Below are positions 384 through 35,491 of a DNA stretch of 64,000 nucleotides, piece by piece. This stretch comes from Candidatus Heimdallarchaeota archaeon (GTDB lineage: Archaea > Asgardarchaeota > Heimdallarchaeia > JABLTI01), in the NCBI GenBank assembly GCA_018238155.1, contig JABCTZ010000041.1, positions 1 through 64,000 of the forward strand. Reading direction: 5' to 3'. The position numbers were made by a program, and so were the translations under genes. The notes under the pieces were generated by a model. That model was not told where the DNA came from, did no database searches, and saw only the letters and a program-made list of their open reading frames with translations. Numbering within the stretch: the first letter of the stretch is position 1; every line of letters begins with the position of its first letter.

Positions 384-773
384 AGGAGGTCTATCTGATA
401 ACTGTAAAAAAAAGATTGGAAGCAAAAACAAGCTGATCTCAAAGAGCAAATAACAGACGCTATCGTTAAACTTGCCAATCAAACTGAAAAAGCTTGTATC
501 TCAGAGGAAATGCAAAAACATCTCCAATTGATGTCCAAGTTCCACAAATATTCCTATAACAATATTCTGTTAATTCTATGTCAGCAACTGAACGCTTCCC
601 ATGTTGCTGGATATACACCTAACAAAGTTGTCAGAATCAATAAGTGGAAAAAGCTCAACCGATTCGTAAGAAAAGGTGAGAAAAGAATTGCTATCTTAGC
701 ACCATGCATATACGAAAAGAAACGTCTCGATGTTCAAACAGGCGAGGAAGTCAAGCTTTATCCAATAGATTAG
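384..773 (+). pseudogene. Truncated ArdC-like N-terminal domain remnant
   Basis: A good Shine-Dalgarno (AAGGAGGT, 383-390) is followed by a frame that breaks at a run of eight A (406-413). The open part runs from 408 to 773. Its peptide contains YSYNNILLILCQ, HVAGY, KVVRINKWKKLNRFVRKGEK and IAILAP, the pattern of the ssDNA-binding N-terminal domain of ArdC-like antirestriction proteins. It stops at LYPID, before the usual VFDxxQT segment and before any C-terminal metalloprotease domain. No ATG lies at a sensible distance after the Shine-Dalgarno. I read it as a decayed fragment of a mobile-element gene. An 87-residue product starting at the ATG at 510 remains possible. Confidence 0.55.
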
Positions 774-1650: not shown

Positions 1651-2337
1651 ATGCATCTTAATAATGTTATGCCACAGAGAAGAAAATCAACTACAACACT
1701 TACTCAACAAAATCTACAAAGAAATCTACCGCTTGAAAAGTCTGATAAGCCTATACTGAAAGTTTCTATTGCAGGTATTGGTGGAGTAGGTAAAACTACC
1801 TTGTGCCAAAGAGCTTTGGGTAGTATATTAGAAGATTATTATTCCAATTATAAAATAACTATTGGTGTACAATTTTTTACTCATAATGTGGTTACAGATA
1901 TTGGTGAAGTTGTTTTGAGCGTGTGGGACCTTGCAGGTCAAGATCAATTCCAAGAAATTGTTAATCGATTTTTAATTGGTAGTAGTGGAATAATTCTTGC
2001 CTACGACAGCACAGACATCAACAGCTATTTTTCTTTACATCATAGATGGATGCCATTAATTGAGGAATTTTGTGATCCAAATATACCAATTATTTTAGTT
2101 TCAACTAAAAATGACTTAGAAGATGATAAAGAAGTAGACCCTAATTTAGTGCGTGATTTTATTTCCTCAAAAGAAGAACACAATCAAAACATTATCGAGT
2201 TTTTAGAAACTTCATCAAAAAGCAATATAAATGTGAATGAAACATTTGACATTTTGGTTAACAACATAATAAATAAGAAAATTGAAGAGTATCAAAAAAA
2301 GAATAACGACGCTAAATTATCCAAGATTGTAAATTAA
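1651..2337 (+). CDS. Rab/Ras-like small GTPase
   Basis: A protein of 228 residues with a full set of G motifs: GIGGVGKTT (42-50), TIGVQF (70-75, the Rab-type switch I), WDLAGQ (92-97), TKND (152-155, NKxD position) and ETSSK (186-190, matching ETSAK). A Ser/Thr/Gln-rich N-terminal extension of about 35 residues precedes the G domain. There is no C-terminal prenylation cysteine, so membrane attachment, if any, must be indirect. It is preceded by a roadblock gene and converges on a zinc-knuckle protein gene, overlapping it by 4 bp. Expansions of such GTPases are typical of Asgard archaea. The nucleotide-binding function is well supported; the cellular process is unknown. Confidence 0.9.
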   Translation: MHLNNVMPQRRKSTTTLTQQNLQRNLPLEKSDKPILKVSIAGIGGVGKTTLCQRALGSILEDYYSNYKITIGVQFFTHNVVTDIGEVVLSVWDLAGQDQFQEIVNRFLIGSSGIILAYDSTDINSYFSLHHRWMPLIEEFCDPNIPIILVSTKNDLEDDKEVDPNLVRDFISSKEEHNQNIIEFLETSSKSNINVNETFDILVNNIINKKIEEYQKKNNDAKLSKIVN

Positions 2338-2346
2338 TCTTTACAA
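2327..2346. terminator. Bidirectional hairpin with both convergent stop codons in the loop
   Basis: TTGTAAA (2327-2333) pairs perfectly with TTTACAA (2340-2346). The 6-base loop TTAATC holds the plus-strand TAA (2335-2337) and the minus-strand TAA (2336-2334). The two convergent genes overlap inside this loop. Confidence 0.5.
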
Positions 2347-4031
2347 GTTTCTTGTGCTTCTTTAATAATTGCAGTAAAGGTTCTGTAAATTTCTAAGAAT
2401 GATTTTGAGTAATCGAAGCCCAATTTGTAATCTGAAGGTTCAATGTACAATTCCAAAACAATATCTATTGATTTTAAAGGATCTCTTTCTGTTACCATGA
2501 AATTGAAATTGAAACCGATTTTATATTTCTCTTCAGCATGTATCTTGTCATTTTTATAATTAGAAATTGTTTCTTTTATTATGTAAAGATTATTGTAATG
2601 GAAAATTCTCGGATCGATAAACCGGTATTTTTTAGAGATCAATTCTGTGATTTTTTCAGTAAATTTTTTCAAGTTTTTTTGGTAAATTAGTGAGCTTATA
2701 TAATGTCTTTCTATTATAGAGTAGGAGATATTTTTTTGTAAAATTTCTTTCATTTTTGTATAAACACTTTTTTCAGTTGTATCTCCTTTGTCTATTTCTT
2801 TGAATTTGGTTCTCAAAAAGTTTGCATTCAACTCATCTATTACTTGTATTCTACTGAAAAACAGTAAATTCTTATTTAGCATTAACAATGTGTTATTAAA
2901 CAAAGTGTATTCTGAAATAGTTCTTGCATATTTGAAGGCATAGAAATCATTATTATCAAAGAAAGAGATGGTATAGGATAAGGGAGTTACATATTCAACA
3001 ATAACTTCATCTTCTAGTTTGAAGGTTGAAATTTCTTTTAATATATCAATAAGGATATCCTCTCGAGTAAATATTGGTAATTTCTTAAGGTTAAGAGTGA
3101 GCTTCTTAACAACAGTTGATGGTTTTCGGTTGATCCATACAGACATTGGTTCTACCGTTTTCTTCTCATCATCTTCAATGTTATCAATAAATTTTCGATA
3201 GTAATTTGCTATATTATGATTCATTTGAGAGGCAAGAGGTAAAATAATTGTTAGAAGACCCTGCTCTAAACCATTTATTACTAAGGCGGTTAGAAAGTCC
3301 TCTGCTTCTTCAAGAGTAGCTACAGTTGCAAAATCAGTACAATTCTTTAATATTAATTTCATTTGTTCTTCAATTGTCGAGAAAAAAGTTTTTTTATTCT
3401 CTGTTGAATGTAATTTTTGAAGAATGGATGAACAATAACTATTTTCGATGCCGTTTTTGACATGATTTTTTGGTAAATTTACAATAAGAGAATCTTCATA
3501 TAATTCAATATTTTTGGGTTTAGTTCCTATTATTATAGCATTGCTTTTGTTAGTAGTCCAACATTCTACTTGAGATATTCTATGTTTCGTAAAAGCAGTT
3601 ATTGCTAAACAAGTAGATTCAACTTCAGTTTTTTCTCCAAGGAAGACTATTTGTTGACCAATAATTGCTCCGAAAATTACTTGGGCTAATTGTTCACCTA
3701 GTTTTTTATGCAGATAAATAAAACCATTATGTTGTTTAGCATCTAAAAATTGTGCTTTTTCTAATAAATTTGTTTGATGAAGTTCAGCTAAAGTTACAGG
3801 ACAGCTCACTTTTTGTCGTAAAGCTAAATTTTCATCAAAATAAAGCATAAAAGCTATTTGTTCATCCAAGCATTGATGAATAACTACTACTCTAAAAATC
3901 CCACCAATTGCACTATCTTTTTCAGATTTTTTGATTGGAACCTCAATGGAGTTGCCACAATTCTCACAAAGAATATGATGAATATAACCTATTCCATTAT
4001 CATTTTTAGCATGAATATCATTAATTTTCAT
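2334..4031 (-). CDS. Zinc-knuckle protein of unknown family, probable GTPase partner (long form)
   Basis: A protein of 565 residues, not recognised as a named family. The N-terminus holds CENC (C22, C25) and H52-x-C54, a likely zinc site. Residues about 100-200 form an alternating strand/helix module (LHKKLGEQLAQVIFGAIIG, QQIVFLGEK, NAIIIGTKP). The rest is mixed helix and strand with no signal peptide or membrane helix. The same layout (CxxC, H/C pair, then a GxDLAxIIxxxLxG module) recurs in the 322-residue protein at 33902-34867, which is also next to a Ras-like GTPase. By eye the module faintly resembles longin/DENN-type regions of GTPase regulators; this is low confidence. A cytoplasmic role with the neighbouring GTPase is inferred from context. 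Confidence 0.5.
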   Translation of the reverse strand: MKINDIHAKNDNGIGYIHHILCENCGNSIEVPIKKSEKDSAIGGIFRVVVIHQCLDEQIAFMLYFDENLALRQKVSCPVTLAELHQTNLLEKAQFLDAKQHNGFIYLHKKLGEQLAQVIFGAIIGQQIVFLGEKTEVESTCLAITAFTKHRISQVECWTTNKSNAIIIGTKPKNIELYEDSLIVNLPKNHVKNGIENSYCSSILQKLHSTENKKTFFSTIEEQMKLILKNCTDFATVATLEEAEDFLTALVINGLEQGLLTIILPLASQMNHNIANYYRKFIDNIEDDEKKTVEPMSVWINRKPSTVVKKLTLNLKKLPIFTREDILIDILKEISTFKLEDEVIVEYVTPLSYTISFFDNNDFYAFKYARTISEYTLFNNTLLMLNKNLLFFSRIQVIDELNANFLRTKFKEIDKGDTTEKSVYTKMKEILQKNISYSIIERHYISSLIYQKNLKKFTEKITELISKKYRFIDPRIFHYNNLYIIKETISNYKNDKIHAEEKYKIGFNFNFMVTERDPLKSIDIVLELYIEPSDYKLGFDYSKSFLEIYRTFTAIIKEAQETCKD

Positions 4032-4465
4032 CTAAAAAACCTTCAAGTGTAAGATATTTGAATATGAGAATTATAGAAATAACTATTTTATAACCTTTGT
4101 TAACAGATTTTTTTTGAAATTAATTAGATAGATTATCAATAATTATTTTCCAGATTTTTTTATGCTCTTCAATAATACTATTTATTCTATTATTGATATA
4201 CTCACACATGTCCTAAAACTTTGATAACAATTATATTATAGAGTTTTTTCCTTGCGAGAGTAGATATTGAAACAATACTATTCAGAAATGATATGATATC
4301 ACGGATACATGAGAAACGATTTTTTTTAAATTATAAACAAGACTCTTTTTAACTTTAAACTAGTGAAAATTAAAAGCATATTTTATTTTTTCTCCGACAT
4401 AATTTTTTTTTCAGCAATATTTATTATTGTATCTTCCCTTTGTATCTATTGAATAGTTCTTTTTC
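4032..4465. other. Intergenic between divergent genes, carrying promoter copy 1
   Basis: These 434 AT-rich bases separate the zinc-knuckle gene (minus) and the secreted protease (plus). From about 4381 onward the sequence is repeated upstream of the gene at 7027. That part should hold the protease promoter, with TATA-like AATATTTATTATT near 4416-4428. No gene or RNA was seen in the rest. Confidence 0.45.
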
Positions 4466-4577
4466 TTGAATTATTCAGAGGAGTGGAAAGAATTTGGAAA
4501 GAATTTGGAAAGAATTTGGAAAGAATTTGGAAAGAAAGCAGGGCTAATGGTATTTATTATGATCGTTTTTTTAGCAA
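4381..4577 (+). repeat. Direct repeat copy 1: promoter, leader and signal-peptide start
   Basis: This segment reappears nearly unchanged at 6788-6952. Shared blocks include TCTCCGACATAATTTTTTTT, CAGCAATATTTATTATTG, ATCTATTGAATAGTTCTTT, GAGGAGTGGAAAG and AAAGCAGGGCTAATGG. Copy 1 has 33 extra bases because an 11-bp unit occurs four times instead of once. Here the segment runs into the intact secreted protease gene. Confidence 0.85.
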
Positions 4578-6148
4578 TACCTGTTGTAACAACATCTGCA
4601 CAGAATGCTATGAAAGGGGATCCAGTAATCATCTGTGTATCTTCTGAATTGATACGTGCAAAAGAACGAACAGCAAGAACAGAAGATGCTTCGTTTGGAG
4701 ATATCATCTTTCATTTGGATGTGCAATTAAAAGCAGTGAAACATTTCACCTCAACAGCGAATGCTACGTTAAGGTTCAAGGATATTGCTAGTTTAGCAGT
4801 AGAACAAACGATGACCGGAGAAAAAAATGAGCCGAAAATACTGCAAAGCCAAACGACCTGGAATGCTATGAGACGTGGAAAAACACAAAGTGCTCTTCAA
4901 CCGTTCGCAATTACAGGTTTCCAGCGTTTACCCGAAAGAATAGCCTTTGAGTTGGATATTACTTATAGAAATCCCAACGACAATGAGCTATATGTCACGA
5001 CATTATCAATCATCCCAGGGATTCCTGATGCAACGATTGATATAACATATATCTCTGATCCTCCAAATAGACCAAAGGGAGATGTTGTACCAATTACCAT
5101 TAAAGTAAAGAACACTGGTAGTGAATACGCTATCGGATTATTTGTTGCAGTTAGAGTAAAGTCGATAGGAGCCGGAACAACTATCCATCAACCGTATATT
5201 AATGGTGCTTATGATAGTATCGTTTTACGTACATCTCGAACAGTCTTAACTATGTGGGAATTTATGGCTCCACAATCAGAGATAACTATCAATTTTAACA
5301 TAGCTTGTGTTAGTTATTCAAATGGTGCGCTGAATATTGGGTTATGGGAAATAATTCAAGTGGAAGCTTATGCATATAATTCACCAACAGTATATTCAAA
5401 TGCCATCGTTGATCCTGAATTTAGTGTTACTGCAAAAAGTAAAAATAACGGACCACATGCAGTCTTTATCTACTATCTTTGGAACTCAGGTGGCACAGGT
5501 AATAATTGGGGTGGGGATAATCCGAAGAATTATTTTGTCAATGGCTTTGGAGATGTTAAAGCAGGATTATGGCGATTTAGCACCTATGATAGCAATATAC
5601 CTGTCCTTATCAATCCAATGATTGCTTATGATGACCACACCTGGAGTATACCTTTAGGGATGCATAGCACTACACAAATGATAAACAACGGAAGAGTTCA
5701 TGTAGCATCAAAACTGGGAATCAACGAATGGAAAATAGCAGGAGGACAGTCATTTCGCAAAAATTGCGGATTTGATCTTATCTTAATGTTAGCAGGTAAA
5801 AGAGGTGATGTTGCTGGCTTGGCTTCAGGTAATTGCGCCGTTGCTTGTAAATGGAGAGCTGGTTTACCATCAGGTCCTAATTGGAGAAAAAATATTGATG
5901 GTATTGTACAACACGAAGTTTCTCATTTGTTTGGATGTAGGGATGTTATTGGTGGACATCAAAAAGTAGAATGTATAATGGCATATTTTTATGTGAAAAT
6001 TTGGATTTTTGATTATTTTCATTCCTACATATATGAACATGCAACAAGAACTTGGGGACACCAAGAAAATCATTGGCATAGTTCTTGTACTTGTCAGTCT
6101 GACTTTAATACCGGCTGGGAGTATTACTATACAATAAATTTAGATTAA
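4466..6148 (+). CDS. Secreted metzincin-like zinc metalloprotease
   Basis: A protein of 560 residues counted from the TTG at 4466. A hydrophobic signal sequence (LMVFIMIVFLAIPVV) ends near an Ala site (TSAQ). Residues about 190-300 hold a CARDB-like beta domain (ITIKVKNTGSEYAIGLFV). The C-terminal third carries HEVSHLFGCRD (483-493), the metzincin signature HExxHxxGxxH/D with Asp as third ligand, followed 10 residues later by a Met-turn-like CIM (503-505). That supports an active extracellular protease. The start is uncertain: TTG at 4466 and TTG at 4505 keep basic residues before the hydrophobic core, while ATG at 4547 would begin inside it. The next gene begins 5 bp downstream, suggesting co-transcription. 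Substrate unknown. Confidence 0.7.
   Translation: MNYSEEWKEFGKNLERIWKEFGKKAGLMVFIMIVFLAIPVVTTSAQNAMKGDPVIICVSSELIRAKERTARTEDASFGDIIFHLDVQLKAVKHFTSTANATLRFKDIASLAVEQTMTGEKNEPKILQSQTTWNAMRRGKTQSALQPFAITGFQRLPERIAFELDITYRNPNDNELYVTTLSIIPGIPDATIDITYISDPPNRPKGDVVPITIKVKNTGSEYAIGLFVAVRVKSIGAGTTIHQPYINGAYDSIVLRTSRTVLTMWEFMAPQSEITINFNIACVSYSNGALNIGLWEIIQVEAYAYNSPTVYSNAIVDPEFSVTAKSKNNGPHAVFIYYLWNSGGTGNNWGGDNPKNYFVNGFGDVKAGLWRFSTYDSNIPVLINPMIAYDDHTWSIPLGMHSTTQMINNGRVHVASKLGINEWKIAGGQSFRKNCGFDLILMLAGKRGDVAGLASGNCAVACKWRAGLPSGPNWRKNIDGIVQHEVSHLFGCRDVIGGHQKVECIMAYFYVKIWIFDYFHSYIYEHATRTWGHQENHWHSSCTCQSDFNTGWEYYYTINLD
4491..4534 (+). repeat. Four tandem copies of an 11-bp unit
   Basis: AATTTGGAAAG occurs four times in a row at 4491, 4502, 4513 and 4524. 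Because 33 extra bases equal 11 codons, the reading frame of the protease is kept, giving the repeated peptide pattern EFGKNLERIWKEFGK. The second copy of the large repeat has a single unit at 6899-6909. Confidence 0.9.
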
Positions 6149-6153
6149 AAAAT

Positions 6154-6774
6154 ATGAGGAAAACAAACATGATTAAAAAGGAAATAATGAACAACAACGG
6201 ATTTCGAAAGAGGAAGAATGCGAAAATAACAACAATAATGGCATTCTTCTTGGTAGTTATATTCACCATTAGCATTTTCAACGCTATTCCTACCTGTTTT
6301 GCTGCTACTTCAAGCTCTTCTAGTTTATCTATAACAGAAAGAATCTTTGAAGAACGATTCGTAGATAATGAATCTATACAATTAATAACGCTAACTTATT
6401 TTCGCGACACAATCATTCATATCAACATCACTGTTCAAATACAATCAAATTCAAGTGTGTATATTTACCCTCTAGGAATACATCGAGAAGATTTTTCACC
6501 TCAACAGACTAACACTACACTTGCGCCAGGGAAATCGTTTGCTGAGAGTTATAAATTTACCGGTAATGCCGCTGGAGGGTTCTTCTACTTTTGTAATTGT
6601 ACACTTGTTAATAGTAATGCAACTGTTCTATGGTGGTATGATGTTATTTATTCAGCAAAACCAGATAACGGATTCATTGGTATAGACTTTCTATTCATCC
6701 TCGGAGCAGTTATTCTTTCAACAATGGCTTTTGTGTTCATCGCAAAAAGAAAATCCAACAAAAAGAATGAGTGA
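6154..6774 (+). CDS. Small secreted protein with C-terminal membrane anchor
   Basis: A protein of 206 residues. A basic N-terminus (RKRKNAK) precedes a hydrophobic signal segment (TTIMAFFLVVIFTISIF) and a cleavage-like stretch (TCFAATS). The mature part is a beta-rich, Asn/Ser-rich domain of about 120 residues (INITVQIQSNSSVYIY, LAPGKSFAESYKFTG, NSNATVLWWYDV). A transmembrane helix (FLFILGAVILSTMAFVFI) and a KRKSNKKNE tail follow. It lies 5 bp after the metalloprotease gene and is probably in the same operon. The partial gene at 2-205 and the gene at 7027-7605 are paralogs. Function unknown; a cell-surface location is inferred. Confidence 0.7.
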   Translation: MRKTNMIKKEIMNNNGFRKRKNAKITTIMAFFLVVIFTISIFNAIPTCFAATSSSSSLSITERIFEERFVDNESIQLITLTYFRDTIIHINITVQIQSNSSVYIYPLGIHREDFSPQQTNTTLAPGKSFAESYKFTGNAAGGFFYFCNCTLVNSNATVLWWYDVIYSAKPDNGFIGIDFLFILGAVILSTMAFVFIAKRKSNKKNE

Positions 6775-7768: not shown

Positions 7769-8635
7769 TTATTTAGACAAATTTTCAATTATTATTTTCC
7801 ATATTTCTTTTAGCTCTTCTGCAACACAATTTTTTGGCATTTCCAATATACTCTTACGTGCAATGATACTTTGAGGAACAATTGTATCATAAGGTATTTT
7901 TCCGGCAAGGACAATACCATTTTCTTTACAGAATTTCTCTATTTCTTGAGTTATCCGTTCATTCAAATCGCTTTTATTTATGCATACAAGAGCTTTTACG
8001 TTAAAATGGATTGTCACATCTAGAATACGTTTTAGGTCATGAATTCCACTTAACGTTGGTTCCACAACAATGAGTGCTAAATCTACTCCGGTTATTGAGG
8101 CGATGACAGGGCAACCAATACCTGGAGATCCATCAACAATAACATATGTTAGGTTTTTTTCTTCAGCAATTTTGCGAGCTTCTTTTCTTACTGTGTCTAC
8201 AATTCGTCCGGAAGAGCCTTCACCAATTTCCATATTTGCATGGACAAAAGAACCGAAGCGTGTATTTGATATTAATATTCTTGCAGATAAAAATGCTTCA
8301 AGAGTCAATGCTTTTTCAGGGCAAACACGTATACAGAGACCGCATCCTTCACATCGATATCTATCATATGTATCTGCAGTGATAGCATCAAATTGACAAT
8401 GTTCTCCACACAAATTGCATTTTTTGCATAAATCTTCATTACGAACAACTTTCTTGGAAATGTTCAAATCTGTTGTAGAAATTATTTCTGGGTGAAGTAT
8501 TAGATGCAAATCAGGTGCATCTACATCTGCATCAGCCATTACAGCACTACCTTTTGCCAGATAAGCTATCCCTGCTGCAACTGTTGTCTTTCCTGTACCT
8601 CCTTTCCCACTAATAATTGTAATTTGTTTAACCAT
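7769..8635 (-). CDS. MinD/ParA-family ATPase with inserted ferredoxin domain
   Basis: A protein of 289 residues. It begins with a deviant Walker A, SGKGGTGKTT (9-18). A 2[4Fe-4S] ferredoxin insert follows (LCKKCNLCGEHC and YRCEGCGLCIRVCP), then VIVDGSPGIGCPV (Walker B-like) and VEPTLSGIHDL. This is the COG1149-type Mrp/NBP35-related family, often found next to NifX-like proteins and thought to work in Fe-S or metallocofactor handling. The ATG at 8635 was chosen because it has a GAGAGGAG ribosome site and overlaps the upstream gene's end by 8 bp, indicating translational coupling. It is a tandem paralog of the gene at 8628-9476. The binding motifs are seen; the partner protein is unknown. Confidence 0.85.
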   Translation of the reverse strand: MVKQITIISGKGGTGKTTVAAGIAYLAKGSAVMADADVDAPDLHLILHPEIISTTDLNISKKVVRNEDLCKKCNLCGEHCQFDAITADTYDRYRCEGCGLCIRVCPEKALTLEAFLSARILISNTRFGSFVHANMEIGEGSSGRIVDTVRKEARKIAEEKNLTYVIVDGSPGIGCPVIASITGVDLALIVVEPTLSGIHDLKRILDVTIHFNVKALVCINKSDLNERITQEIEKFCKENGIVLAGKIPYDTIVPQSIIARKSILEMPKNCVAEELKEIWKIIIENLSK

Positions 8636-9476
8636 TAAATTTAACTCTCCTCTCGATTTCTGCATATAAATTTTGGAATCGTTTTTTCCATTCAGGCATT
8701 ATTTCCACTAATGATTTTCCTTCAGAATAAGCCTTAGCAATTTCTTTTTCAAAAGGAATTTTCATTAATATTGGTATATCTTCCTTTTTACAGAATTCTT
8801 CTACTGAATTATCCCCGCCCAATCCGTCACGATTAATGATCACTCCAAAAGGTATTCCTAGACTTTTAACTACGTTTACTGCAATTGTTAAATCATACAG
8901 ACCAAAAGGAGTTGGTTCAGTAACTAATATGCAATAATCAGTTTCATTTATTGTTTCAATGACAGGACATGAATTTCCCGGTGGGGCGTCTAATAGAGCA
9001 ATAGAGTTGTTTTTAATTTTTGATTTTACTTTTTGAATGACAGGTATTCCTCTTGGAATTCCAATATCTAATAATCCATTAACAAATTCGATGGAATCAT
9101 ATGCTTTCCCAATATTAATTTCACCTACACAGAATCTCTGTTCTGAGATTGCATCTTCAGGACAAACAAATTCACATGCTTTGCAGCTCATACACAATTC
9201 CTTGAAAAAGATAATAGTATTTGGTAAAGCTACCAATGAATTAAACTCACATGCTTCAGCACAAAGACCACATTTTGTGCATTTTTCATCATCAATTAAA
9301 GGATTGTAAACAGTAACGCTTTCTGTTGTCAATATTGTTGGTTTAAGGAAAATATGTGCATTTGGTTCTTCTACGTCACAATCAAGAAATTGACATTCTT
9401 GTAATGAGATTGCGAGATTAATTGCTACTGTTGTTTTTCCAGTGCCACCTTTGCCACTTGCTATGCTAATTTTCAT
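8628..9476 (-). CDS. MinD/ParA-family ATPase with inserted ferredoxin domain (paralog)
   Basis: A protein of 282 residues. The N-terminal SGKGGTGKTT is followed by DCDVEEPNAH and two ferredoxin Cys clusters (CTKCGLCAEAC and CMSCKACEFVCP). ALLDAPPGNSCPV and VTEPTPFGLYDL come later. It has the same architecture as its downstream partner, so the two may form a heterodimeric ATPase, as related Mrp-type pairs do. It belongs to a minus-strand cluster with two NifX-like proteins and a DUF5320-like protein. The likely role is ATP-dependent binding or transfer of Fe-S or other metal clusters. No nitrogenase genes lie nearby, so nitrogen fixation is not implied. Confidence 0.85.
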   Translation of the reverse strand: MKISIASGKGGTGKTTVAINLAISLQECQFLDCDVEEPNAHIFLKPTILTTESVTVYNPLIDDEKCTKCGLCAEACEFNSLVALPNTIIFFKELCMSCKACEFVCPEDAISEQRFCVGEINIGKAYDSIEFVNGLLDIGIPRGIPVIQKVKSKIKNNSIALLDAPPGNSCPVIETINETDYCILVTEPTPFGLYDLTIAVNVVKSLGIPFGVIINRDGLGGDNSVEEFCKKEDIPILMKIPFEKEIAKAYSEGKSLVEIMPEWKKRFQNLYAEIERRVKFNG

Positions 9477-31543: not shown

Positions 31544-31891
31544 GTGTCTGAAATGATTGAACCAATGTTTGATGAAATTGAAGAAGTTGATGAAGAACAA
31601 GTCGCAGAAATGCCCATAATTCACCAATCGAGTGAATATTATGTTGAAGAACAACTAATATACCAATATTCTCATGAAGATGGATTACTAAAACTTGATA
31701 TTGATAAAAAAGGGTACGATGAACTACTCAAAAATCTGGGTGAGTTCCCAGATGAAGGTGCTTCTTTCTGTTTCTTATTACCTCAAATGGGTGAAGTGTG
31801 TTTTTCAGGTGTATATAAAATTGAGCGCTTAGTAAGTGAACGAGGTTTCATTAGAAGATTTACTAGAGCATTCCGGAGAAGACGACGATGA
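31544..31891 (+). CDS. Small protein with acidic head and basic tail
   Basis: A protein of 115 residues. The first 35 residues are strongly acidic (MFDEIEEVDEEQVAEMP). A central mixed region carries FCFLLPQMGEVCFSGVYKIER, and the end is strongly basic (RRFTRAFRRRRR). I do not recognise it. The stop overlaps the start of the thioredoxin-like gene as ATGA, so the two are translationally coupled. The start is GTG at 31544 or ATG at 31553. The basic tail could bind nucleic acid or a membrane surface. A role with the thioredoxin-like protein is inferred from coupling only. Confidence 0.55.
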   Translation: MSEMIEPMFDEIEEVDEEQVAEMPIIHQSSEYYVEEQLIYQYSHEDGLLKLDIDKKGYDELLKNLGEFPDEGASFCFLLPQMGEVCFSGVYKIERLVSERGFIRRFTRAFRRRRR

Positions 31892-32238
31892 GTTTCTTTA
31901 AACGCTTATTTAGTAAGAAGAGAACAGGATTGGAAGATTTTCCACCAATAAAAGAAGCAATTAAAGATAATGATTTTCTATTTGTCAATCTATTTTCTAA
32001 TTCATGTCTAGTATGCAAGAGAACTAAACCTATTGTAGATGAAATAAGTCAACTGTATCCTAAAGTCAAAGTCTTGGAGATACTAATTGATTCATATGAT
32101 GAAAAACAGCTGAAAAAATTTGGTATAGTATTTACTCCAACTTTAGCGTTTTATGGTGAAGAAGGAAAAACAGTTCATCGCTCAGTTGGACTTATTGATA
32201 AAGTAAAACTGAAAAAATTATTTGAAATGTCTATTTAA
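31888..32238 (+). CDS. Thioredoxin-like protein
   Basis: A protein of 116 residues. NDFLFVNLFSNSCLVCKRTKPIVDEISQLYP holds a CxxC redox motif (CLVC) at the start of the helix, as in thioredoxins. FTPTLAFYGEEGK supplies the cis-Pro loop (TPT). An N-terminal extension of about 20 residues is basic (FFKRLFSKKR). The fold is thus well supported, while CLVC in place of CGPC suggests a different redox potential or partner. It overlaps the previous gene by 4 bp and precedes the HIT-DUF3179 gene by 35 bp. Confidence 0.8.
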   Translation: MSFFKRLFSKKRTGLEDFPPIKEAIKDNDFLFVNLFSNSCLVCKRTKPIVDEISQLYPKVKVLEILIDSYDEKQLKKFGIVFTPTLAFYGEEGKTVHRSVGLIDKVKLKKLFEMSI

Positions 32239-32273: not shown

Positions 32274-33818
32274 ATGGATAAGAAAAAATGCCCCGAATGT
32301 GAATTTATTGATGGAAAAATAATTGATGGATTAGAATTTTTTGATAAAGATCTTTTGATTTATCAAAACAAAGGATTTGCAGCGTATTATTCAAATAATC
32401 CTGTAACAAATCGTCATATAATTATTCTCCCTAAAAACCATCATTTTCGAATATTAGAATTTACTCCAAAAGAGTGGAAAGAATTCGGTGAATTATTACA
32501 GAATATAGGTGTAGCCAGTTCTATGAGATCTTTCAATTTAGCAGTTCATAGTGGAATTGAATTTGGAAAGCACTTGTTAATTCATCTTCTACCATCAGGA
32601 AAAGAAGGGTATAAATTAGAATTAGAACCTAAAGGCAAAATAGATGCAAAGAAAAAGAAAGAGCTAGTATTGTATTCAAATGAGTCAAAGTTAAAAATGC
32701 CTATAAAAGGCCGCACAATTATGCTAGAAGAATCAGCTCCCAGAAAGAAAGATATTCCATTTGAAGATATTATGCCTGGGATGCCATGTTTAGTTCATGG
32801 AAAGAGGCACAATTGTGAGTTTGCTCCTCCAAAAGATGCAATATCACCAATTTACGAACCAAAGTTTGTTGAAATAGCCAAAGTGGATTATGTTAAAGAC
32901 GATGATTTAGTAGCTTCTGTCACTATCAATGGAGAAACAAGAGCTTATCCAATACGATTTCTTGACTTTCATGAAATTGTAAATGATTCTATTGGAGACA
33001 CTCATTTTGCAGTTAGTTATTGTCCATTGTGTGCTTCAAGCTTAGTATTTAATAGAAAAATAAATCCTGATAAACCTCCATCGAAGTTTGGTGTTAGTGG
33101 TTTTCTTTATCAGTCAGATTTATTGATGTTTGACCACGAATCAGATAGTTTATGGAGTCAAATTGAAGGTGAAAGTATCTATGGTAAATACCTCGGAAAA
33201 GAGCTTGATTTAATACCATTCCAATTAATGAAATGGAAAAGCTGGAAAACAACCTATGTTAACGGAAAAGTTCTTTCAATAGATACTGGATTCTCTCGAG
33301 ATTATACTCATTATCCTTATGGCGAATATATGACAATGGAAAAAACCGTTTTCCCAATAAAAAGAAAAGATGAAAAGAATCGTCTCCATCCAAAGACAAT
33401 GGTCTACGGATTAGAATCTGAAGGAGTAGCAAAAGTTTATCCGGAGGATTATATTTTGGATCAAAAAATACTCCATGATACAATCGGTAAAACACCAATA
33501 GTAATCACTGTAAATCAAGCTGAAGGTGTTTTAGCTTTTGAAACTACTATTGCAGGTAAGAGTTTGACTTTCAAACGAACAGATGATGGATTATTAGATA
33601 AAGAGACAAATACAAAGTGGAATTTTCTAGGTGAAGCTGTTTCTGGACCAAAGAAAGGTTCGATGCTAAAAATCAGACCAGACTTATTGCGAATGTTCTA
33701 CTTTGCTTGGGTAGCATTTAATCCAAAGGTTGAAGTAGAAATTTATCAAAATATTCACGAACGACCAACATGGAAAGAACGCCTTTTCAGTAGATTCAAG
33801 AAAGAAGAAAAAAAATGA
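32274..33818 (+). CDS. HIT-like domain fused to DUF3179 domain
   Basis: A protein of 514 residues. Residues 1-135 look like a HIT domain: a CPEC zinc knuckle, then NPVTNRHIIILPKNHHFRI and a degenerate His triad (GKHLLIHLLP instead of HxHxHxxP). From about residue 165 comes a DUF3179 domain: YPIRFLDFHEIVNDSIGD, VSYCPLCASSLVFNR, FGVSGFLYQSDLLMFD, SDSLWSQ, and later ETNTKWNFLGEAVSG. DUF3179 is of unknown function, with a conserved CPLC motif. The HIT active site seems altered. It lies in the thioredoxin-like operon and ends with a hairpin. The fusion is unusual and the substrate unknown. Confidence 0.75.
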   Translation: MDKKKCPECEFIDGKIIDGLEFFDKDLLIYQNKGFAAYYSNNPVTNRHIIILPKNHHFRILEFTPKEWKEFGELLQNIGVASSMRSFNLAVHSGIEFGKHLLIHLLPSGKEGYKLELEPKGKIDAKKKKELVLYSNESKLKMPIKGRTIMLEESAPRKKDIPFEDIMPGMPCLVHGKRHNCEFAPPKDAISPIYEPKFVEIAKVDYVKDDDLVASVTINGETRAYPIRFLDFHEIVNDSIGDTHFAVSYCPLCASSLVFNRKINPDKPPSKFGVSGFLYQSDLLMFDHESDSLWSQIEGESIYGKYLGKELDLIPFQLMKWKSWKTTYVNGKVLSIDTGFSRDYTHYPYGEYMTMEKTVFPIKRKDEKNRLHPKTMVYGLESEGVAKVYPEDYILDQKILHDTIGKTPIVITVNQAEGVLAFETTIAGKSLTFKRTDDGLLDKETNTKWNFLGEAVSGPKKGSMLKIRPDLLRMFYFAWVAFNPKVEVEIYQNIHERPTWKERLFSRFKKEEKK

Positions 33819-33845: not shown

Positions 33846-33901
33846 ACCATAACAATAACTTTAAAGAAAATAATTGAACATTGTTTGAGGTAGAACAGAA
33901 A

Positions 33902-34867
33902 ATGTTACGAAATAAAGAACAGGATGCTGAAAAATCAATAATGCTTGAAGGTATTGTATTTCCTTGTGATATTTGTAAAGAAGATATTGTAATAGGAAAC
34001 TCATCACAAGGAATAAAAGTCATCTCTAAACAAACAAATTTGGATGACTTCTTTGGTACATTGGAAACCTATCACATTGAATCAGCATGTGAAGCGAATG
34101 AAATCCACGTGAATATTGTTGTAATTGATGGTCAAAAAAGATATCGTGGGCACAAATATTCTACAATAAAAACATCTGAACCTGTCGAAAAAAAGCACAG
34201 AGGTAATATTAGACTGCTATTAGGTATTGGAAAGGATTTAGCAAAAATCATTTCTTCCTCTCTACAAGGATGCTCTTTAATTCTATGTGGTGATTCACCA
34301 ACAACAACTTTGTGGGCTAACACTCTCCAAGAATTATTCACTTTATCCCCTTTTATACGTAGAAAATGGATTATTTCTGAAACTGAATTCAAAAGAAAAT
34401 TTGATTTAAATCCCATAAAAGAAGCAGGTGAATTTATTTTAATTGATGATAGTTTACTCAAAATTGTTCGAAAAAAATACTCTAAGATTACAGTAGTTGA
34501 TTTAAGGAAAAATAAAGTATATAATGCCAAGGAAAAAGAATTTGCTAAAAATTTTGTTGCTGCTGTTATGAGAATCCCAGAAACACAACATGAAGCAGTG
34601 TTGAACTATGTTACTATTCAAGTTGAATGGTTGAAAAGATTACTAGAAGAATTGAAAGGAGAAATGGATAGTTCGATAGTAGAAACAGCTGCATGTCCAA
34701 TAGGTAATTTAGCTGAAACGGTAAAGATAAACGCCGTTTTAGATCAAGTTATTACTGAAAAAGTATTAGGTGACTTGAGAGCAAGAATGAGACCAGAAGA
34801 ATTTGAGATTGTTATTGCACATCTTTTAAGAGAAGTACCGGCATTAAATGAAATTGTTCATCATTGA
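33902..34867 (+). CDS. Zinc-knuckle protein of unknown family, probable GTPase partner (short form)
   Basis: A protein of 321 residues from the ATG at 33902, which has GAGGT 10 bp upstream; an earlier TTG at 33881 is less likely. The N-terminus shows PCDICKEDI (CxxC) and, about 45 residues later, YHIESAC, as in the long-form protein at 2334-4031. Next is LLLGIGKDLAKIISSSLQGCSLILCGD and LQELFTLSPFIRRKWI, matching the long form's GEQLAQVIFGAIIGQQIVFLG segment. The C-terminal 120 residues are helical (ILDQV-type) and end with a compact helical domain (RMRPEEFEIVIAHLLREVP). It lies 15 bp before a Ras-like GTPase gene. A regulator or effector of that GTPase is inferred. Confidence 0.55.
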   Translation: MLRNKEQDAEKSIMLEGIVFPCDICKEDIVIGNSSQGIKVISKQTNLDDFFGTLETYHIESACEANEIHVNIVVIDGQKRYRGHKYSTIKTSEPVEKKHRGNIRLLLGIGKDLAKIISSSLQGCSLILCGDSPTTTLWANTLQELFTLSPFIRRKWIISETEFKRKFDLNPIKEAGEFILIDDSLLKIVRKKYSKITVVDLRKNKVYNAKEKEFAKNFVAAVMRIPETQHEAVLNYVTIQVEWLKRLLEELKGEMDSSIVETAACPIGNLAETVKINAVLDQVITEKVLGDLRARMRPEEFEIVIAHLLREVPALNEIVHH

Positions 34868-34882
34868 ATTGAAGGTTATACC

Positions 34883-35491
34883 ATGTCAGAAAAAAGAAAT
34901 CATACAGAAGATTACTTACTGTACCTTAAAATAACAAAGGATTTATTCAAATTTTGTGTTATAGGTGACGGTGGGGTTGGAAAATCAACTTTTATTAATT
35001 TCTTAACGACAGGTCAATTAGCTTCAAATTTTAAAGTAACACGAACCCCCTACATAAATATTGATGGCTGTAAACTTGGAGGACACACTATTCAATTATA
35101 TGATCTAGCTGGGCAAAGAAGAACTGATGCTCATCCCTTAGATCACATGCAAAATGTTATTTTAAAAGGAACAGATATAATATTGTTTTTCTTTTCGCTG
35201 GAAAATCTAGAATCGTTTATCAACATTAAAAAATGGTATGAAGAAATAAAAATATTCTATAAAGATTGGGAAAATGATAGACCACTCTTATTCCTTATAG
35301 GAAATAAACTCGATTTACCTAGAAATGTCGAATCTTTTAATGGGGAAGAGTTAGTTGAAAGAATGAATGATTTTGAGGTTTATCACGAAATTTCTTTGTT
35401 TTCTGGTAAAAACGTTGAAGACTTTTTGAAAATCCTTTGCGACAAACTAGATGAACAATTCCAAAATCTTAAAGAAATAGCTGGTTTGTAA
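34883..35491 (+). CDS. Ras-like small GTPase
   Basis: A protein of 202 residues. The G motifs are GDGGVGKST (G1), RTPYINI near switch I (G2), YDLAGQRR (G3), GNKLD (G4) and a weak G5 (EISLFSGKN). It differs from the GTPase at 1651 in switch I, being less Rab-like, and in having a short N-terminal extension (MSEKRNHTEDYLLYLKITKDL). No prenylation motif was seen at the C-terminus. It is co-directional and 15 bp downstream of a zinc-knuckle protein gene, almost certainly one transcript. Nucleotide binding and switching are well supported; the pathway is unknown. Confidence 0.88.
   Translation: MSEKRNHTEDYLLYLKITKDLFKFCVIGDGGVGKSTFINFLTTGQLASNFKVTRTPYINIDGCKLGGHTIQLYDLAGQRRTDAHPLDHMQNVILKGTDIILFFFSLENLESFINIKKWYEEIKIFYKDWENDRPLLFLIGNKLDLPRNVESFNGEELVERMNDFEVYHEISLFSGKNVEDFLKILCDKLDEQFQNLKEIAGL

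Follow-up and report, generated by a model that had tools for sequence, protein, structure and literature searches.

Zinc-ribbon proteins with a probable folliculin/SMCR8-type DENN core are encoded beside small GTPases in a Heimdallarchaeota genome

The window analyzed here, a stretch of 64,000 nucleotides from contig JABCTZ010000041.1 of a Candidatus Heimdallarchaeota archaeon (assembly GCA_018238155.1), carries two genes, for proteins that we call A and D, each next to a gene for a small GTPase (Table 1). The genes of protein A (565 residues) and its Rab-like neighbor share bases 2334–2337 and are therefore convergent with a 4-bp overlap, as a preliminary description of the window had stated. 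A 322-residue protein preceding a Ras-like GTPase had also been placed at 33902; the position and the GTPase, which follows after 15 bp, stand, and the length is 321 residues plus the stop codon (328 residues from an alternative TTG start at 33881). As judged by Pfam, both neighbors are genuine Ras-family members. All motifs named for protein A are present: CxxC and HxC are formed by C22, C25, H52 and C54, and GxxLAxxIxxxIxG by G112-EQ-LA-QV-I-FGA-I-I-G125. The assertion that protein D shares this layout holds beyond chance, as the profiles below show, with corrections in detail: D has a CxxC (CDIC), its second pair is H-x4-C (HIESAC) instead of HxC, and its module, GKDLAKIISSSLQG, is one position off the pattern. 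The name “zinc knuckle” was wrong and we have dropped it, because the spacing in protein A, CX2C-X26-HXC, resembles that of zinc ribbons and does not fit CX2CX4HX4C.

A direct comparison of the two proteins by BLASTP gave nothing significant (E = 1.4), and kinship was assessed with profiles of paralogues gathered by whole-genome searches with protein A and protein D each. A profile of the shared core, about 134 positions long and built with D left out, finds protein D at 1.9e-8, and a second, built only from family members that have no zinc domain, recovers protein A at 9.4e-17 and protein D at 1.2e-5 before any unrelated protein appears, at 0.07. In the opposite direction, a profile of the zinc-DENN groups A, B and C finds longin-type proteins at up to 3e-31. 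These profiles bear out the proposal that A and D belong to one family, and as judged by them the two cores share a common ancestry, D being the most divergent member. A search that covered 228 Asgard genomes (E up to 0.001) located the core in 57, namely 49 Heimdallarchaeia and 8 genomes of other classes, and a single genome can have as many as 11 matches; most relatives carry a longin-like domain N-terminal to the core (longin-DENN). Viral contigs were also searched and contained no relatives.

Several lines of evidence bear on the nature of the core. When family members were scanned singly against Pfam, matches to Folliculin were obtained at 1.6e-5, 2.8e-6 and 4.2e-7, over the Pfam cut-off, together with matches to C9orf72-like (0.0031, on the longin of a paralogue) and Folliculin_C (0.0018). 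Folliculin_C gave 12 matches at E up to 0.01 over the 228 Asgard genomes, 11 of which sit on core-family open reading frames (ORFs) as judged by comparing coordinates with the core search; among them are an orthologue of protein A (G006:C74; 0.0021) and one match over the cut-off of 27 (G055; 27.7 bits, or 27.2 as protein). The twelfth, at locus L149, has a weak core match (0.0089). Run against 14 control genomes, the same model found nothing. In the PDB, the core profile agrees best, if weakly (E = 0.056), with the beginning of the SMCR8 DENN domain (residues 723–758); an f4-type longin-DENN alignment returned chance matches only, and full-length orthologues of protein A, taken as a profile, gave nothing meaningful. 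Taken together, the Folliculin, C9orf72-like, Folliculin_C and SMCR8 matches make a folliculin/SMCR8-type DENN domain the best reading of the core from sequence, a relation that for A and D themselves is supported through the family profile only. Of the longin/DENN-like core suggested in the preliminary description, the DENN part is supported by sequence, and the longin is confined to paralogues (such as those at L014 and L143), being absent from proteins A and D. The L149 locus (3688–6197, + strand; G083, outside Heimdallarchaeia) appears to be an operon of a roadblock-like protein, the Folliculin_C-like protein and a GTPase. At L145, L146 and L151, in other Asgard genomes, a folliculin-like longin is joined to a GTPase domain.

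In alignments, A and D begin with a CxxC...H zinc ribbon where their relatives have the longin. The ribbon is predicted to bind zinc; one Asp in it is invariant, one Arg occurs in 12 of 13 alignment rows, and our guess is that this Arg might act in catalysis. Elsewhere in the window genome (C8), the same ribbon is found as a C-terminal fusion to a RagA/Gtr1-like GTPase (2.7e-32). The gene of this fusion protein converges with a second RagA-like gene, an arrangement shared by six genomes; in the window genome the pair lies at L184:1425-2648 (+) and 2721-4466 (-). Also on C8, a longin plus zinc-ribbon protein adjoins a V4R (TRAPPC3-like) protein (L144:1935-3393, -).

Longins of some window-genome paralogues (on C6 and C7, and the longin-zinc protein on C8) carry the motif (A/L)RGGxR. 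Among 735 proteins of more than 150 residues in the fetched loci, the motif occurs in 12, all longins of this type, several of which had been fetched for their Folliculin match. A profile of the RGGxR longins matches folliculin in the PDB at 0.0056, and the motif arginine falls at R164 (counted from residue 144 of the printed folliculin alignment), which we take to be the catalytic arginine of FLCN. A putative catalytic Arg has been described in FLCN (PMC8213707), and arginine fingers in the longins of SMCR8 and Avl9 (PMC8213707, PMC12803157). Two longin-DENN proteins with this folliculin-like loop, at L143:3442-4629 (-) on C7 and L014:6755-7918 (+) on C6, exceed the Pfam Folliculin cut-off.

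The link with GTPases is real but uneven. Protein A adjoins a GTPase in every genome whose locus is intact (8/8), all of one genus, in which full-length orthologues are 26–75% identical (one scan of genome contigs yielded a single orthologue, L011). At these loci the GTPase side is constant, whereas the opposite side is altered in at least three. At L139 the reading frame of A is interrupted by a stop codon, so that the piece adjoining the GTPase there is a C-terminal fragment. Proteins of the D type adjoin a GTPase in 4/4 cases, including one from another family (L128), and the E group, sister zinc proteins that have the ribbon without the core, does so in 8/8 cases from four families, with the GTPase gene first. 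The D and E pairs recur in the Heimdall families f1, f2, f3 and f7 with intergenic gaps of -25 to +86, often as same-strand overlaps. With 46 Ras/Arf-type loci in 4.08 Mb, the window genome gives a chance adjacency of about 2.4% per gene (using a gene number estimated from genome size); 3/6 of its unfused zinc genes adjoin a GTPase, for which P(3 or more of 6) = 2.5e-4 in a test devised after the pairs had been seen. Conversely, 13 of 15 GTPases of the D/E type (E up to 1e-30; 9 of the 15 had built the profile) adjoin a zinc gene or a D orthologue as judged by comparing coordinates; one of the others lies at a contig end and one (G022) is without a zinc neighbor. In a tree of 22 sampled GTPases, those of this type, the neighbor of protein D included, group as one clade (support 96/94). 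A longin-DENN group, C15, lies in four genomes at a distance of three genes from an Arf-like GTPase. At its locus L088:2532-6323 (-), a longin-like, helix-turn-helix-like and DENN-core protein stands beside two coiled-coil proteins and the Arf-like GTPase, an order kept in four genomes.

We consider it probable, if far from certain, that A and D are zinc-ribbon-DENN proteins that control the nucleotide state of the adjacent GTPase, as a GTPase-activating protein (GAP) sooner than as a guanine nucleotide exchange factor (GEF). They would represent a variant of the folliculin/SMCR8/C9orf72-type longin-DENN architecture with a zinc ribbon in place of the N-terminal longin, would bind the GTPase encoded next door through core and ribbon, and would control its nucleotide state. 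Two points favor GAP over GEF: among eukaryotic proteins the nearest relatives are GAP subunits, and paralogues in the window genome keep the folliculin arginine-finger loop; by this analogy, A or D may have GAP activity on a small GTPase. A number of observations weigh against this proposal. Proteins A and D have neither a longin nor the arginine-finger loop, which in longins of this type joins beta4 and beta5, and scanned directly they match neither DENN nor folliculin models in Pfam (for A alone, only GtgE at 0.11, which we judge to be chance), while the canonical DENN model PF02141 has no match in the window genome at E up to 10. AlphaFold2, run on the window proteins and L011, gave no usable structure, with pLDDT (predicted local distance difference test) values of 33 for protein A (2 sequences) and 38 for the core (3 sequences); a helical region after the core, where the C-terminal d-DENN helices would lie, is seen in this low-confidence model. 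The gene of A is convergent with that of its GTPase, hence not co-transcribed with it, and since A is known from one genus only, its pairing may partly be inherited gene order. No GTPase adjoins the loci examined of the zinc-DENN groups B and C, each of which occurs in up to 9 genomes and was viewed at a few loci in longer stretches, and most longin-DENN genes likewise lack such a neighbor; the earlier idea of a family dedicated to GTPases is supported for A (within one genus), D and the E group and not for these others.

Among the alternatives, the chief one is that A and D are effectors or membrane or scaffold adaptors, which bind the active GTPase and relay its signal while leaving its nucleotide state unchanged. 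We regard this as possible but clearly the less probable account. It would suit the lack of an arginine-finger longin in A and D, the clustering of D with thioredoxin and DUF3179 genes, suggestive of a pathway output, and the mobility of the ribbon, which is fused to a RagA-like GTPase, to a longin and to helical or TPR-like regions. The invariant Asp and nearly invariant Arg of the ribbon speak against it, as does the fact that GAPs and GEFs make up most of the characterized eukaryotic proteins with this type of DENN domain (PMC8213707, PMC12803157). The GTPase neighbors could also be incidental, given how frequent small GTPases are in the window genome, the restriction of A to one genus and the lack of GTPases beside groups B and C, with gene order simply inherited; yet the spread of D and E pairs over four families, often with overlap on one strand, the single clade formed by the paired GTPases, the fusion of the ribbon to a RagA-like GTPase and the retention of the GTPase side of A where the other side changes make this improbable. 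We give still less credence to a view of the core as a Rossmann-like alpha/beta domain with only local resemblance to DENN, in zinc-ribbon proteins of another function whose relation to folliculin reflects convergence. Direct matches are indeed short (about 35–100 residues) and mostly under cut-offs, and structure prediction is uninformative; however, different Pfam models meet on one family, Folliculin_C on the core, the Folliculin and C9orf72-like models on the longin before it, and 11 of the 12 Folliculin_C matches over the 228 genomes belong to this family, with no control genome matched.

Asgard archaea are rich in small GTPases, and folliculin, a human tumor suppressor, and C9orf72 are human disease genes. 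GAPs and GEFs of small GTPases have been described as largely specific to eukaryotes. The DENN module and its divergent members were traced within eukaryotes by Zhang et al. (2012), where the module is described as assembled early in eukaryotic evolution (PMC3521125). Tran et al. (2024) treated Asgard GTPases, roadblock and longin proteins and called the matching of GTPases to regulators from gene order difficult (PMC10933270); the main text of Eme et al. (2023) does not mention DENN, folliculin or longin (PMC10307638). The preliminary description knew no name for the family, and our literature search, with preprints and subscription papers outside its range, turned up no description of archaeal homologues of DENN proteins or folliculin; priority for an archaeal DENN is not certain. 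Our results suggest that archaea already possessed a switch-control system that has been regarded as invented by eukaryotes. If so, the origin of the regulator would predate eukaryotes, unless it was transferred later, and the gene pairs would name likely GTPase partners, giving defined pairs for in vitro work. It is conceivable, though we think it unlikely, that Heimdallarchaeia hold a functioning forerunner of the longin-DENN GAP system of eukaryotes, made up of (i) FLCN-like longin-DENN proteins with the catalytic arginine, (ii) Rag-like GTPase pairs and (iii) a side branch in which the zinc ribbon stands for the longin and its nearly invariant Arg serves a dedicated GTPase as the catalytic residue.

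The surroundings of the two pairs are conserved to different degrees. A gene for a small protein of 144–153 residues lies 49–80 bp upstream of the GTPase in 7/7 A-type loci examined. The layout recalls roadblock or longin proteins; a roadblock assignment is unconfirmed, the Pfam scan of the 153-residue protein having given no family and no Robl_LC7 match. In L128, which comes from a different family than the window genome, a thioredoxin, a small basic protein and a counterpart of the HIT-like + DUF3179 protein recur beside the D-type pair, as judged by eye. Elsewhere in the window, positions 7769-9476 (-) encode two ATPases of the ParA/MinD type whose cysteine clusters resemble, by eye, those of ferredoxins, and similar genes directly adjoin A orthologues in several relatives. 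A short ORF at 510-773 (+) is nearly identical to one at L015:14676-14999 (-) and is possibly the remnant of a mobile-element gene.

Table 1. Genes and predicted domains at the two GTPase-linked loci of the window
Feature	Position	Strand	Description
Small conserved protein, 153 aa	1140..1601	+	49 bp upstream of the GTPase gene at 1651-2337
Rab-like small GTPase	1651..2337	+	Convergent with the protein A gene; Pfam Ras 6.8e-33
Protein A, 565 aa	2334..4031	-	N-terminal zinc ribbon, DENN-like core, C-terminal region without assigned fold
Zinc ribbon of protein A	3798..3986	-	C22, C25, H52, C54; D66 and R72 conserved (alignments)
DENN-like core of protein A	3327..3728	-	Matched at 9.4e-17 by a profile built from longin-type cores alone
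115-aa basic-tailed protein, D cluster	31544..31891	+	96-aa look-alike adjoins the GTPase in L128 (by eye)
Thioredoxin-fold protein, D cluster	31888..32238	+	Pfam Thioredoxin 1.1e-8; L128 counterpart by eye
HIT-like + DUF3179 protein, D cluster	32274..33818	+	DUF3179 3.5e-87; HIT 0.0016, just under cut-off
Protein D, 321 aa (ATG 33902)	33902..34867	+	Zinc ribbon, divergent DENN-like core
Zinc ribbon of protein D	33947..34165	+	Alignment; profile 2.4e-23 (profile includes D)
DENN-like core of protein D	34208..34660	+	Profiles without D: 1.9e-8 and 1.2e-5
Ras-like GTPase	34883..35491	+	15 bp downstream of the protein D gene; Pfam Ras 7.5e-21

Compared with known systems, proteins A and D share with CCHC zinc knuckles a small Cys/His zinc motif but differ in its spacing. 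Canonical DENN proteins (PF02141; Rab GEFs and the AVL9 group) belong to the same broad superfamily according to the literature (PMC3521125), although their model matches nothing in the window genome. The MglB/roadblock regulators of MglA-type GTPases are prokaryotic GTPase regulators encoded beside GTPase genes, and group B adjoins two small roadblock-like genes (by eye), but A and D themselves lack a Robl_LC7 match in Pfam. SMCR8 and C9orf72, which form a longin-DENN Arf/Rab GAP complex, are closer: the SMCR8 DENN domain is the top PDB match of the core profile and a paralogue has a C9orf72-like longin (0.003), albeit with weak scores. Folliculin is a longin-DENN GAP for RagC; A and D differ from it in having a ribbon for the longin, without the arginine-finger loop, and in neighbor GTPases that are Rab/Ras-like and not shown to be Rag-like. 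The likeness lies in the family as a whole, where the core matches Folliculin_C in 11 relatives and the longins of the paralogues match Pfam Folliculin and align at R164.
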